The notes under the pieces are model-generated. The model had not been told where the DNA came from and did not search any database. It saw only the letters and a program-made list of their open reading frames with translations. The position numbers and the translations under genes are program-made. Of a DNA stretch of 64,000 nucleotides, positions 8,264-17,285 are shown piece by piece; within the stretch, counting starts at the first letter, position 1, and the number at the start of each line of letters is the position of its first letter. Source of the stretch: Solwaraspora sp. WMMD406 (GTDB lineage: Bacteria; Actinomycetota; Actinomycetes; Mycobacteriales; Micromonosporaceae); the NCBI RefSeq assembly GCF_029626025.1, contig NZ_JARUBF010000001.1:6852001-6916000 (forward strand), written 5' to 3'.

Positions 8264-8593
8264 ATGATCGACATAGCGCTCGTCGAAACAGCCCGCGACG
8301 CGATGGCGTCCGTCATCGACGCGGCGGCCGTACTGGCCGCGCCAGCGGGCGAGCCCGAGCCGGACACCCCGACCGGTTTCAACACCGAGGGCGTCGTCTC
8401 CTTTCTCGCCAGCAAGGTCGCACCGATCCTGCTCGCCGTGCTCGGCGTGATCTTCATCGGACGAGCCAGCAAGGGCGAGATCTCCAAAGTGCTGACCAGC
8501 TCCGCGATCGCGATCGTGGGTTTGGCGTTCATCGCCGGAGCAGCGACGCTCTTCTTCGTCGGCGATTATCTGATCAATCTGATGTTCGAATAG
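8264..8593 (+). CDS. VirB2/TrbC-like two-helix membrane protein, putative pilin-like T4SS subunit
   Basis: 109 residues; ATG 8264 preceded by GGGGAGG at good spacing. The N-terminal 45 residues are mostly soluble and Pro/Ala/Glu-rich. Two transmembrane helices follow, VAPILLAVLGVIFIGRA and a second around ATLFFVGDYLINL, joined by a short basic loop (RASKGEISKV). This size, topology and position, first gene before the PrgI-like and VirB4-like genes, match VirB2/TrbC-type subunits of Gram-positive conjugation systems. No sequence motif proves the assignment. It leads a plus-strand operon running to 17285. Confidence 0.6.
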   Translation: MIDIALVETARDAMASVIDAAAVLAAPAGEPEPDTPTGFNTEGVVSFLASKVAPILLAVLGVIFIGRASKGEISKVLTSSAIAIVGLAFIAGAATLFFVGDYLINLMFE

Positions 8594-8608
8594 AGCGCGG
8601 GGCACGAG

Positions 8609-8971
8609 ATGCGGCTGCGTACCGACGACGACATCTACCGGGCTCGCCTGGTCTACCTCGGCCCGCCCGGCTACACGTTGCCGATCCACCTGCCGTATGC
8701 GCAGTACGGGGTTTTCATCCTGTTGGTCCCGTTCTACATGTTCGTGCACTGGCTCTTCACCTTCAACGTGGAGCTCTTCCCCGCCTGGGAGATCGCGCTG
8801 GCGATCGTCACGACGTCGTTCATCTTCCGGTACGTGGATCCGGACCGGCCAGCGCGAATGGTCGTCCGGACCGCCCTCACCGACTGGCGCCGCACCCGGG
8901 AGCCCGCTACCGAACAGCGGGATCCGCGCCTCGTCGCCAGCCACATCAGGATCCGGGAGGAGCTGGCATGA
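8609..8971 (+). CDS. PrgI/VirB3-like membrane protein
   Basis: 120 residues, starting 15 nt after the preceding stop. The basic N-terminus is followed by two adjacent helices, AQYGVFILLVPFYMFVHWLF and a second around EIALAIVTTSFIFRYV, then a cytoplasmic tail of about 50 residues rich in Arg. PrgI/VirB3 proteins of Gram-positive T4SSs have this size and hairpin topology and are typically encoded directly before VirB4. Its stop overlaps the next start as ATGA. Assignment rests on topology and gene order. Confidence 0.6.
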   Translation: MRLRTDDDIYRARLVYLGPPGYTLPIHLPYAQYGVFILLVPFYMFVHWLFTFNVELFPAWEIALAIVTTSFIFRYVDPDRPARMVVRTALTDWRRTREPATEQRDPRLVASHIRIREELA

Positions 8972-9081
8972 CCCGCACCCCGATCGCCCGGCCGGGAGCC
9001 CACGGGACCGGCGGCACCACCGCCGCGCGCCCACACCCCGGCGACCACCGCGACGGCCGCTCCGGCGAGGCGATGGCATGA
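8968..9081 (+). CDS. 37-residue ORF coupled at both ends, between PrgI-like and VirB4-like genes
   Basis: ATG 8968 overlaps the PrgI-like stop (ATGA) and its own TGA overlaps the VirB4-like ATG 9078 (ATGA). The product is a short Gly/Thr/Arg/His-rich peptide (begins MTRTPIARPGAHGTGG, ends GEAMA) without a helix or known motif. It may be a real small protein or simply a device that carries ribosomes from one gene to the next. Confidence 0.45.
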   Translation: MTRTPIARPGAHGTGGTTAARPHPGDHRDGRSGEAMA

Positions 9082-14982: not shown

Positions 14983-15531
14983 ATGAAAGCGATCATCGCC
15001 TTCGCCGTCCGGTTCCTCTTCCGGTCCCGGCTCGGGTTCGCGGTCCTGCTGCTGGTCGTGGTGGTCAGCGTGGTCGGGGTCGGACAGGTGGCCGGGCAGG
15101 TCGGCGGCACCACTGGAACGGTTCTGGGTGACCCCGCGCCGGGACCGGCGCTGACCGTCGACCCGACCGAGGGTGACGACGGCATCCAGTCGCTGCGGCC
15201 GGAGCCCGAGCCGGTCACCGCCGCCGACGCGGACCGGCCGGAGGCGGTCGCGTTGGCGTTCGCCACCGCCTGGATCGACCGCTCTCTCGACCCGGACCGG
15301 TGGCACGCCGGGCTGCGCCCGTACATGACCGACGACCTGGCGGACAAGCTGACCGGGGTCGATCCGGTCGTGGTGCCCGCCGAACGGCTGACCGGCGAAC
15401 CGGCGCTGATTCCCTACGCGACGAACCTGGTCGAGGTGGTGATCGAGGTGGACTCCGGCAAGCTACGGTTGCGACTCAGCGGCCCGGACGGGCACTGGCT
15501 GGTCGACGGCGTCGACTGGGAGCGAGGTTGA
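14983..15531 (+). CDS. VirB8/TcpC-like bitopic protein
   Basis: 182 residues with one N-terminal membrane anchor (FAVLLLVVVVSVVGVGQVAG), a linker, and an extracytoplasmic domain from about residue 85. The pattern VALAFATAWIDRSL, RWHAGLRPYMTDDLADKL and a C-terminal strand ending WLVDGVDWERG resembles the NTF2-like fold of VirB8/TcpC proteins. Such proteins bridge channel and wall in T4SSs. Its TGA overlaps the next start (TTGA). Homology is inferred from pattern, size and operon position. Confidence 0.62.
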   Translation: MKAIIAFAVRFLFRSRLGFAVLLLVVVVSVVGVGQVAGQVGGTTGTVLGDPAPGPALTVDPTEGDDGIQSLRPEPEPVTAADADRPEAVALAFATAWIDRSLDPDRWHAGLRPYMTDDLADKLTGVDPVVVPAERLTGEPALIPYATNLVEVVIEVDSGKLRLRLSGPDGHWLVDGVDWERG

Positions 15532-16661
15532 CCGCCCCGCCGCCGAGCGTCCGGTCCCGCGCCGCCCGGCACGTCGCCCTCACCTTGGCCCTGACCGCGA
15601 CCCTGGTGCTGCTCTGCTGCACCGGTGGGATCGGCGCGGTCCTGTTCACCGACGACGAGCCGGACCAGTCGGCGTTGTTCCGCGCCTTCGGCTGTGGTCG
15701 GGAGGGTCCGGTCCGGGCCGACGACATCGACTTCCGGATCGGCCCGTACGGTCCGGAGCAGCTTGGCAACGCGGCCGTCATCATCAACGTCGGCGCCGAG
15801 ATGTCCGTCTCGCCCCGGGGCTGGGTGATCGCGGTCGCCACCGCGATGCAGGAGTCCACCCTGCGCAACCTCGGCCATCTCGGTTCCCGCAACGACCACG
15901 ACTCGGTCGGGCTGTTCCAGCAGCGTCCCAGCCAGGGCTGGGGTACGCCGGAACAACTCCAGGACCCGGCGTACTCGTCGCGGAAGTTCTACGACAAGCT
16001 GCTCACCGTCGACGGCTGGGAGACGATGACGCTCACCGCGGCCGCGCAACGGGTGCAGGTCAGCGCCTTCCCGGACGCGTACGCCAAGCACGAGCCGCTG
16101 GCGACCAGGATCGTCAACGTCCTCACCGACGGGGCGGCCCGGGCGGTCGTCGGCCCGGACGGGCTGCGGTGCGCCGGCGACGGCGAGATCGCCGCCTCCG
16201 GGTGGACCCGGCCGGTACCGGGCAACGTCGGCTCCGGCTTCCGGACCAACTCCCGACCCGGACATAACGGGGTGGACATCGCCCAGCCGAAGGGGGTGCT
16301 GATCCGGGCGGCGTCGGCGGGCCGGGTGATCGTCTCGCGGTGCGACCCCGACCAGTTCGGCAGGCTCGACTGCAACGTCGACGGCTCGCCCCGCAAGGGT
16401 GGCTGCGGCTGGTTCGTCGACATCCTGCACGCCGACCAGGTGATCACGAGATACTGTCACATGGTCAGCCGGCCGGACGTGGCCGAAGGCGACCAAGTCG
16501 ACGCCGGGCAGGTCATCGGCAAGGTCGGCTCCAGCGGCAACTCGTCCGGCCCACACCTGCACTACGAGGTGCACGTGGGCGGCGACCGCAGCAGCCATGG
16601 AGCTGTCGACCCGGTGCCGTTCATGCGGGAACGCGGCGCACCGCTCGGTGAAAGCGGTTGA
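15528..16661 (+). CDS. Dual wall hydrolase: lysozyme-like domain plus M23 metallopeptidase (VirB1-like role)
   Basis: 377 residues from TTG 15528, chosen because it overlaps the previous stop (TTGA) and precedes a clean membrane anchor (VALTLALTATLVLLCC). Residues about 85-190 form a lysozyme/transglycosylase-like domain (ATAMQEST with E109, then VGLFQQRPSQGWG). Residues about 215-365 are an M23 (LytM) endopeptidase with the zinc set H246, D250 and the HLH at 343-345. The Cys-containing insert near CNVDGSPRKGGCGW is common in this subgroup. Both active sites appear intact. In T4SS operons such enzymes open peptidoglycan locally for the channel. Confidence 0.85.
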   Translation: MTAPPPSVRSRAARHVALTLALTATLVLLCCTGGIGAVLFTDDEPDQSALFRAFGCGREGPVRADDIDFRIGPYGPEQLGNAAVIINVGAEMSVSPRGWVIAVATAMQESTLRNLGHLGSRNDHDSVGLFQQRPSQGWGTPEQLQDPAYSSRKFYDKLLTVDGWETMTLTAAAQRVQVSAFPDAYAKHEPLATRIVNVLTDGAARAVVGPDGLRCAGDGEIAASGWTRPVPGNVGSGFRTNSRPGHNGVDIAQPKGVLIRAASAGRVIVSRCDPDQFGRLDCNVDGSPRKGGCGWFVDILHADQVITRYCHMVSRPDVAEGDQVDAGQVIGKVGSSGNSSGPHLHYEVHVGGDRSSHGAVDPVPFMRERGAPLGESG

Positions 16662-16682
16662 CCGAGGTGGAGGTGAACTGCG

Positions 16683-17285
16683 GTGAGCCCGGAACCGATG
16701 CCGGATCCCTTCGCGGACCAGCCCGACTGGGCACCTCGACCGCCTCGGCCGGTGGCCCTGGTCCCGGCCGCGGCCGAACGGGAGCTACGCGGGAAGCGGC
16801 TGCGGATCGGGCTGCCCGGCACCGGTTGGCGGGGCGATCTGCGCGGCGACGAGAAGGTGGTGCAGCGCAGCCGGACCTACGTTCCGGTCTTGCCTGAGCA
16901 GGAGTGGTACCGGGCGGAGTCCGAGGACGTCGAGGTGTTCGCGCCGCTGGTGCCGGCGGACCGGGTCTGGGTGGAGCGCACCGACGACACGCTGACCGCG
17001 CCGGTCCGCGACGACGTGCTGTCCCGGCTGGTGTCGTTGGACGCTCCGGCGCCGCTGTTCCCGGTGCCGGTGGTCGACGCCGGCCCGCTCACCGGGCGCC
17101 GTCTGGTGCACATGGACGACGGGATGGAACAGCGTGATCTGCGGGCGGTGACCGAGCTGCACACCGGCGCGGACGGTGACATCTGTGTCCGGGCCGCCCA
17201 GGAACTGGCGTGGTACCGCTGGGTCTGGACCGGCACACCGCCGGAGACGATCGAACTTCCGGTCCATCTGCTCTGGGTCGAGTGA
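16683..17285 (+). CDS. Hypothetical protein, last gene of the T4SS-like operon
   Basis: 200 residues from GTG 16683, with GGAGGTGA about 8 nt upstream. The protein is soluble with no signal or membrane segment; the first 30 residues are Pro-rich, then a mixed alpha/beta, Trp-containing body (WRGDLRGDEKVVQRSRTYVP, RLVHMDDGMEQRDLRA, ELAWYRWVWTGTPPE). I recognise no family. It starts 21 nt after the hydrolase and closes the operon, so it probably acts with the secretion machine in the cytoplasm, for example as an adaptor; this is inference. Confidence 0.65.
   Translation: MSPEPMPDPFADQPDWAPRPPRPVALVPAAAERELRGKRLRIGLPGTGWRGDLRGDEKVVQRSRTYVPVLPEQEWYRAESEDVEVFAPLVPADRVWVERTDDTLTAPVRDDVLSRLVSLDAPAPLFPVPVVDAGPLTGRRLVHMDDGMEQRDLRAVTELHTGADGDICVRAAQELAWYRWVWTGTPPETIELPVHLLWVE

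Follow-up and report, generated by a model that had tools for sequence, protein, structure and literature searches.

In this work, we describe an operon of seven genes, located at positions 8264-17285 on the plus strand of a 64,000-nucleotide window (the whole stretch of DNA analysed) of Solwaraspora sp. WMMD406, whose products resemble the components of a type IV secretion system (T4SS). Related genes occur in the same order on plasmids of actinomycetes, and the operon itself is a nearly constant feature of Micromonosporaceae chromosomes. A first-pass annotation, made from the sequence, had interpreted the block not as an active mobile element but as a machine for secretion or DNA exchange that the host has domesticated. 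The analysis reported here supports the notion of a domesticated machine, whether for secretion or for DNA exchange.

Genes and products of the operon

All seven open reading frames (ORFs) previously proposed for this block were found, encoding, in order, VirB2-, VirB3-, VirB4-, VirB6- and VirB8-like proteins (B2 to B8 in the following), a cell wall hydrolase and a soluble protein, here named U200. Their positions hold, with corrected starts for the VirB4 gene (9078) and for the hydrolase gene (a TTG codon at 15528). A scan of named genomes confirmed 244 related loci; the best 80, all from Micromonosporaceae, were retained for the comparisons described below. B2 and B3 are separated by no more than 30 bases in 64 of 64 loci, and B4 and B6 in 60 of 66; median distances are 5 bases between B6 and B8, -4 between B8 and the hydrolase gene (30 or fewer in 79 of 80 loci in either case) and 13 between the hydrolase gene and U200 (30 or fewer in 77 of 80). 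The B3-B4 gap is larger, with a median of 49 bases, and is within 30 bases in just 8 of 64 loci; it measures 106 bases in the window. Isolated outliers were observed among the loci, probably reflecting wrong starts. Since small gaps prevail in most related loci, the operon looks like a single transcription unit. A 37-amino-acid ORF at 8968-9081 was dropped as a gene, being matched in none of the 80 loci.

The largest product (9078..13043, plus strand) is a VirB4 ATPase of 1321 amino acids. It matches the AAA_10 domain (PF12846, 1.4e-21) and, far below the curated cut-off of that family, NCBIfam TcpF (2.7e-18). When a profile of ten VirB4 relatives was compared with solved structures, the sole match to E 0.001 was a VirB4 protein (4ag5, 1.5e-12), and the alternative identity of a repair ATPase of the HerA/FtsK families was rejected on this basis. 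Residues K938 and D1171, previously noted as intact, both fit the 9078 start, and the Walker A (EPGGGKST) and Walker B (LDEAHFMEGW) motifs are kept in all 80 loci, across which the VirB4 core (690 amino acids) is 88-92% identical. Calculated on best segments, median identity is 87% for VirB4, 88% for FtsH (over 43% of FtsH length) and 84% for folE; the values for VirB8 (43%) and for an FtsK-like protein encoded downstream (44%) are far lower than that of VirB4. The protein also carries an N-terminal extension of about 470 amino acids (9078-10490), rich in proline and containing a (GN) run; in a relative from another family, coded f86, the called VirB4 ORF is as long as 1,946 amino acids.

Membrane components were assigned mainly by comparison with four plasmid modules, presented in a later section. 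The PrgI/VirB3-like protein (8609..8971, plus strand; 120 amino acids) matches its counterpart in all four (E 3.7e-10 to 1e-6), and so does the VirB6-like protein (13045..14976, plus strand; 643 amino acids, 7 hydrophobic segments), at E 4e-19 to 1e-54; plasmid homology and topology agree in identifying the two as the VirB3/PrgI-like and polytopic VirB6-like membrane parts of a Gram-positive T4SS translocon. The VirB8-like protein (14983..15531, plus strand; 182 amino acids) consists of a membrane anchor followed by an NTF2-like domain and matches three of the four plasmid counterparts. An NTF2 fold had been proposed for it from topology, and the AlphaFold2 model (mean predicted local distance difference test score, pLDDT, 81.9, exceeding 90 in blocks from residue 81 to 180) does predict an NTF2-like fold: Foldseek matched it to the VirB8 protein PrgL (7aed, probability 1.0, E 0.018), to TcpC (3ub1) and to OrfG, none of them below E 0.001, so that the support is at the level of fold. 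B6 and B8 were found in 80 of 80 loci.

The similarity to VirB2 is less secure. The protein in question (8264..8593, plus strand; 109 amino acids), a candidate pilin or channel subunit, features two hydrophobic segments and matches weakly two of the four plasmid counterparts (26.5% identity and E 1.5e-6 in locus L125, E 0.005 in L123). B2 and B3 are present in 64 of 80 loci, where B3 has a median identity of 90%; of the 16 loci without B2, 14 have DNA that starts no more than 1.2 kb ahead of the stretch matched to VirB4, and two (L020 and L061) are unaccounted for. Searches of Pfam and NCBIfam assigned no family to B2, B3, B8 or U200 at the limits used, and none above a cut-off to B6.

The wall hydrolase (15528..16661, plus strand; 377 amino acids) features a membrane anchor, a lysozyme-like domain and an M23 peptidase domain (PF01551, 8.9e-24), as had been suggested from the sequence. 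Residues H246, D250, H311, H343 and H345, which belong to the M23 metal site, are kept in 81 of 81 aligned rows, and the glutamate of the lysozyme-like domain in 80 of 81. The gene was found in 80 of 80 loci and matches all four plasmid counterparts, its lysozyme-like part being 55 and 60% identical to those of two Streptomyces plasmid hydrolases. The operon thus contains most elements of a Gram-positive T4SS translocon: a VirB4 with Walker motifs, VirB3- and VirB6-like membrane proteins, a VirB8-like protein with an NTF2 domain at the fold level and a VirB1-like hydrolase. Because constraint is strong on both VirB4 and the hydrolase, the motor and the wall cutter, the machine very probably works.

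The last gene (16683..17285, plus strand) encodes U200, a soluble protein of 200 amino acids of no known family, in line with the extra soluble protein listed in the first-pass annotation. It was found in 80 of 80 loci, with a median identity of 64%, and no counterpart was matched in the four compared plasmids. AlphaFold2 (pLDDT 86.4) models it as two alike small beta-rich halves, each made of beta strands plus a helix; the halves match each other weakly (E 0.004), which fits a duplication. In Foldseek it came closest to SAWADEE domains and tandem Tudor domains, with E values of 0.011 or more and low template modelling scores, and the fold may tentatively be described as SH3-like. U200 was at first taken as a gene exclusive to Micromonosporaceae, an idea that was dropped: since family f82 has a homologue close to its copy of the operon (L167:10550-10987; 35% identity over 138 amino acids, E 3e-9, about 6 kb past VirB4), U200 is a companion of the operon older than the Micromonosporaceae themselves.

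Upstream of the operon, a block that stands out as conserved when 65 such regions are aligned (8043..8071, plus strand) reads by eye as a probable promoter, TTGTAC-N17-TACGCT; a strict pattern for its second half was found in 52 of the 65 regions, and a scan with a generic consensus found no sigma-70 site there. In the leader between the folP start and the operon lies an inverted repeat (8144-8163) that relatives conserve in part. Its score is that of a minus-strand terminator, although on the minus strand it precedes the start of folP. A conserved RNA element in this region was considered and rejected: Rfam returned nothing at the gathering score and one match at chance level, and RNAalifold found no supporting covariation in the upstream regions of 52 loci.

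Distribution and chromosomal setting

The survey of Micromonosporaceae (family code f1, so identified from its matching loci) found VirB4 in 346 of 354 genomes, 330 of 335 when only those of good quality are counted, and in 41 of 44 genera. Nearly all have a single match; five have two or three. In a sample of 396 genomes drawn from the whole phylum, VirB4 was matched in 11, two of which belong to the same family. The operon separates folP-folK-DUF3180 from folE-ftsH, which sit on the opposite strand. Among the 80 closest loci, 64 have folP upstream, 60 have folE downstream and 52 have both; many of the remaining cases are contig ends. Because VirB4 is present in 346 of 354 genomes and the folP/folE setting recurs in most of the closest loci, we regard the operon, on sequence grounds, as a lasting chromosomal locus and not a mobile element.

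In Mycobacterium folE and folP are adjacent, and it is therefore likely that the operon was inserted into an old folate operon. No clean empty site was found in the genomes devoid of VirB4 whose folP surroundings were read: in two of the three from genus g264, folE and ftsH were not found beside folP, and in G524 folP is found in unrelated surroundings.

Genes required for mobility were searched at several levels. No relaxase, integrase or transposase was found among the 44 predicted window proteins submitted to Pfam, a set that excludes ORFs 2-277 and 6200-6832 and stretches with no called gene. Of 28 repeat families, 20 were inspected, and no direct repeat flanking the operon stands out among these; no tRNA was found in the window, and its guanine plus cytosine content, 68-76% in 2-kb steps, changes with no step at the operon. 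Relaxases of the TrwC (PF08751) and Relaxase (PF03432) families, the two that were searched, are absent from five of five whole genomes, that of WMMD406 included, and the VirD4-type coupling ATPase (PF02534) is absent from the same genome and from both genomes tested of a second family, described below. In close relatives, the flanks seen are folate genes, although no gene-by-gene relaxase scan was carried out on them. The attributes of a conjugative element, namely a relaxase of these two families, a linked coupling ATPase, genes for integration and excision and a sporadic distribution, were accordingly not observed, as the first-pass annotation had noted for relaxase, integrase, att-like repeats and a standard VirD4 protein.

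Two conserved genes follow the operon. The first (17364..17915, minus strand) encodes a membrane-anchored protein of 183 amino acids with no Pfam match, found in 79 of 80 loci with a median identity of 35%; a perfect 20-bp tandem duplication (GCGGACCGGACGTCAGTCCA x2) lies at 17332-17371, just past U200 and before this gene. The second (18124..20841, plus strand) encodes an EccC-like protein of the FtsK/SpoIIIE family (PF01580, 2.2e-16; EccC TIGR03924 at 9.9e-12, far below the cut-off), whose P-loop is broken (GRAGAGVD). In an alignment of 72 rows, the P-loop lysine is found in 12, replaced by arginine in 58 and by valine in 2; it is retained in Phytohabitans, Plantactinospora, Asanoa, Actinoplanes and Paractinoplanes. 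Considered as a motor of the TraB type, as in actinomycete integrative and conjugative elements, the linked gene thus has no P-loop lysine in the window. The protein may possibly be a former motor; no significant match was found to the coupling ATPases of the plasmids (best E 0.076). Farther away, 15 kb downstream, a type VII (ESX) cluster (32162-39348) comprises genes for EccD, for a protein that resembles EccC and contains three FtsK stretches, and for a protease of the subtilisin family.

Relatives on plasmids and in other families

A tblastn search of VirB4 against plasmids returned 255 records, 137 of them from Enterococcus; eight regions were read, and four modules were compared gene by gene with the operon. 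The best eight records are from Nonomuraea, Streptomyces and Pseudonocardia, at 34-37% identity, followed by Rhodococcus. Among the eight plasmids read, topology is recorded as linear for six (Streptomyces sp. 891-h, pSM17C, pRVR2, NEAU-S7GS2, Nonomuraea and Pseudonocardia) and circular for the two from Rhodococcus/Prescottella (Rhodococcus pyridinivorans SB3094 and pVAPN1572). The order B2-B3-B4-B6-B8-hydrolase is common to the window and to the four compared modules, with B3, B4, B6 and the hydrolase matched in all four, B8 in three and B2 in two; VirB4 is 32-37% identical over 847-897 alignment columns. The hydrolases vary, being annotated as C40 or NlpC/P60 in Streptomyces, Nonomuraea and Pseudonocardia and as metallo-endopeptidases in Rhodococcus, the type to which the M23 enzyme of the operon belongs.

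According to MOB-suite, seven of the eight plasmids read are non-mobilizable, having no relaxase, and pVAPN1572 is typed MOBF; over all 255 records, the type is mobilizable for 163, non-mobilizable for 81 and conjugative for 11. No relaxase was found for the operon either, in the two families searched, but because seven of the eight plasmid relatives read are also typed without one, this lack alone does not point to domestication, as the description of the block as relaxase-less might imply. What differs is the coupling ATPase. An annotated FtsK/SpoIIIE- or VirD4-type ATPase lies near the module in seven of the eight plasmid regions (not in the Pseudonocardia stretch), and the P-loop is intact in the four whose sequence was examined, whereas no such intact gene is linked to the operon. 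The lack of a typed relaxase being common to the closest plasmids, it is the lack of a linked intact coupling ATPase that distinguishes the chromosomal form.

Outside Micromonosporaceae, VirB4 was matched in several groups of the same order, the total being 97 of 249 genomes: the family itself, f86 and f84 (62-66% identity), f88 (about 40%) and several more. The match was found in 120 of 120 genomes drawn, and in 46 of 46 genera, of f88, the second family mentioned above, again at about 40% identity; from its size and number of genera alone, f88 is taken to be Pseudonocardiaceae, and f4 is taken to be Streptomyces. The chromosomal surroundings vary. Genes resembling infC-rplT adjoin the block in f86 and at one locus of f84, and of five f88 loci three have an F420-reductase-like and two a Nif3-like neighbour, names assigned by eye from protein starts. 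Where all genes were called, the B2-like, B3, B4, B6, B8 and hydrolase genes are in the same order. No relative of the FtsK-like protein of the window or of the four plasmid ATPases was found in 13 chromosomal loci of the order, covering 11-19 kb each.

In the VirB4 tree, Micromonosporaceae, f84 and f86 form one clade (100/100), while f88 groups with the Pseudonocardia and Rhodococcus plasmids (95/94). A single chromosomal clade was rejected at p 0.0001 with a set including three rows of unclear status; tested against plasmids and two outgroup rows, rejection was weak (p 0.027 and 0.044), in a comparison with three weaknesses: only one change is forced by the starred branches, long branches come together, and testing of the group followed the first tree. 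Given these p values and the limits of the tree, two separate captures by chromosomes are suggested, and no more than that; the reverse path, with plasmids taking modules from chromosomes, may have been followed instead.

Two further observations concern these relatives. In five of the 120 genomes of the second family, VirB4 is interrupted, between the lysine and the serine of the P-loop (GGGK/S), by an in-frame insert of 362-400 amino acids (L176:1732-2916, L177:1959-3158, L178:1792-2877, L179:1817-3001 and L180:1926-3110). The inserts end in THN, and both of those tested match LAGLIDADG_3 (4e-9 and 2e-9); they are very likely inteins. In G193, a Streptomyces-like genome, a second, distant VirB2-B3-B4-B6-like block was found (L127:2499-9249), with a VirB4 of 999 amino acids at about 25% identity; an AAA_10 search found no second protein of this kind in two other genomes of the same genus.

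Proposed function and comparison with known systems

We consider it probable, though by no means assured, that the operon encodes a T4SS-like channel sharing descent with the transfer modules of actinomycete plasmids, captured by the host without a coupling ATPase and used as an ATP-driven envelope machine, probably in hyphal growth or differentiation. VirB4 would power assembly, or the passage of a substrate, through a membrane complex of VirB3-, VirB6- and VirB8-like proteins, the VirB2-like subunits lining or extending the channel; the hydrolase would open the wall locally, and U200 might act on the cytoplasmic side as an adaptor or regulator. Since no coupling ATPase accompanies it, DNA is most likely not what the machine moves; as hyphae grow or differentiate, it would rather export a protein or assemble a structure at the cell surface. 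Among systems with a phenotype, the closest precedent is the Streptomyces cmdABCDEF cluster (SCO4126-4131), which is reported to be chromosomal, to encode a VirB4-related membrane-bound ATPase and five membrane proteins, to be related to the transfer genes of plasmid SLP2 and to be needed for normal sporulation and chromosome segregation (PMC2782261). The analogy is a loose one, because the likely cmd loci, found through an AAA_10 protein of about 478 amino acids, differ from the operon in gene order and size, with neither the same order nor one-to-one homologues. Their ATPases, 475-476 amino acids, are too short to include the VirB4 N-terminal domain, and the VirB8 profile matched one of two such loci (E 6.5e-6) and not the other.

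The machine might still exchange DNA, moving double-stranded chromosomal DNA between hyphae with no relaxase and an FtsK-type ATPase as coupling protein. The same genes are found on plasmids, most of those read being typed without relaxase and having an FtsK/SpoIIIE- or VirD4-type ATPase near the module; genes 19-23 of SLP2 are stated to be needed for its transfer (PMC2782261), and the FtsK-like gene lies only 0.8 kb downstream of the operon, its P-loop lysine being present in 12 of 72 rows. However, this lysine is lost in the other 60 rows, the protein does not match plasmid coupling ATPases, no relative of either was found in the 13 chromosomal loci of other lineages, and cmd deletion is reported to cause no significant change in the transfer of an SLP2-derived plasmid (PMC2782261). 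On balance we deem DNA exchange unlikely. Distinctly doubtful is an apparatus confined to surface appendages or wall remodelling, in which VirB4 would build a VirB2-like filament, the hydrolase would serve its insertion and nothing beyond its own parts would be exported. It is favoured by the position of the VirB2-like gene as first of the operon, and by the statement of a review that Gram-negative pili need VirB4 and VirB11 and not VirD4 (PMC12857230), but none of the operon products was recognised as a VirB11-like ATPase, and the homology of the VirB2-like protein is the least secure of all. An integrated conjugative element or its recent remnant, in spite of the conjugation-like gene order and of one distant family member (G739) having the operon elsewhere, was rejected as extremely improbable, given the presence in nearly the whole family, the shared place in most of the closest loci, the intact catalytic sites and the absence of integrase or relaxase among the scanned window proteins, of outstanding flanking repeats and of a compositional step.

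Several points weigh against a captured envelope machine of hyphal growth. Broad conservation is no proof of a developmental role, and VirB4 is missing in eight genomes of the family: the three of g264, G524, G495 and three of 69-87% completeness. In G739 (L166), whose VirB4 is 82% identical, no match to folP, folE, ftsH, U200 or the FtsK-like gene was found within 19 kb; because of these surroundings, the operon does not keep one place throughout the family, nor is U200 linked to it in every case, and synteny itself was examined in the 80 closest of the 244 confirmed loci. PF02534 occurs once each in two relatives, G204 and G758, far from the operon (and weakly in G758), and an FtsK-type coupling ATPase could be encoded elsewhere, PF01580 having been searched in the window. 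The likely cmd loci, besides their different order and size, have no recognised wall hydrolase.

In a wider frame, a plasmid module would have been captured at least twice without its coupling ATPase, becoming universal or nearly so in two large families and exporting protein or building a structure that crosses the wall; we advance this tentatively, as conceivable but somewhat less than probable. If this reading is true, a conjugation channel was turned into household equipment of actinomycetes that grow as mycelia, without which normal life as hyphae would not be possible.

Conjugative T4SSs of Gram-positive bacteria, of the pCF10, pIP501 and pCW3 types, resemble the operon in having VirB4, a VirB6-like protein, a VirB8 protein of NTF2 fold and a wall hydrolase; in contrast to them, the operon has no linked intact coupling ATPase and no relaxase of the PF08751 or PF03432 families, and is near-universal in its family. 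No description of a family-wide operon was found in the open-licence literature, consulted mostly at the level of abstracts, which is not proof of absence; a Micromonospora lupini genome paper reports, among genes with no assigned function, one virB4 that may be the present gene (PMC4182475). Domestication of T4SSs is known, and a near-universal machine with neither relaxase nor linked coupling ATPase seems to be undescribed in these families. A 2011 survey of integrative conjugative elements reported few T4SSs in actinobacteria and argued that T4SSs may have been domesticated for protein transport much more often than thought (PMC3158045). The Ptl system of Bordetella is similar to the machine proposed here in being a T4SS that exports protein without VirD4, according to a review (PMC12857230), but it is Gram-negative and has a known substrate, the likeness being one of description. 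The same 2025 nomenclature review names one Gram-positive T4SS as the first that translocates effectors and raises the question of effector export by others (PMC12857230). With a T4SS-like machine that is near-universal in actinomycetes known for producing antibiotics, and that is devoid of the known conjugation parts, this question becomes directly testable by the deletion of one gene.

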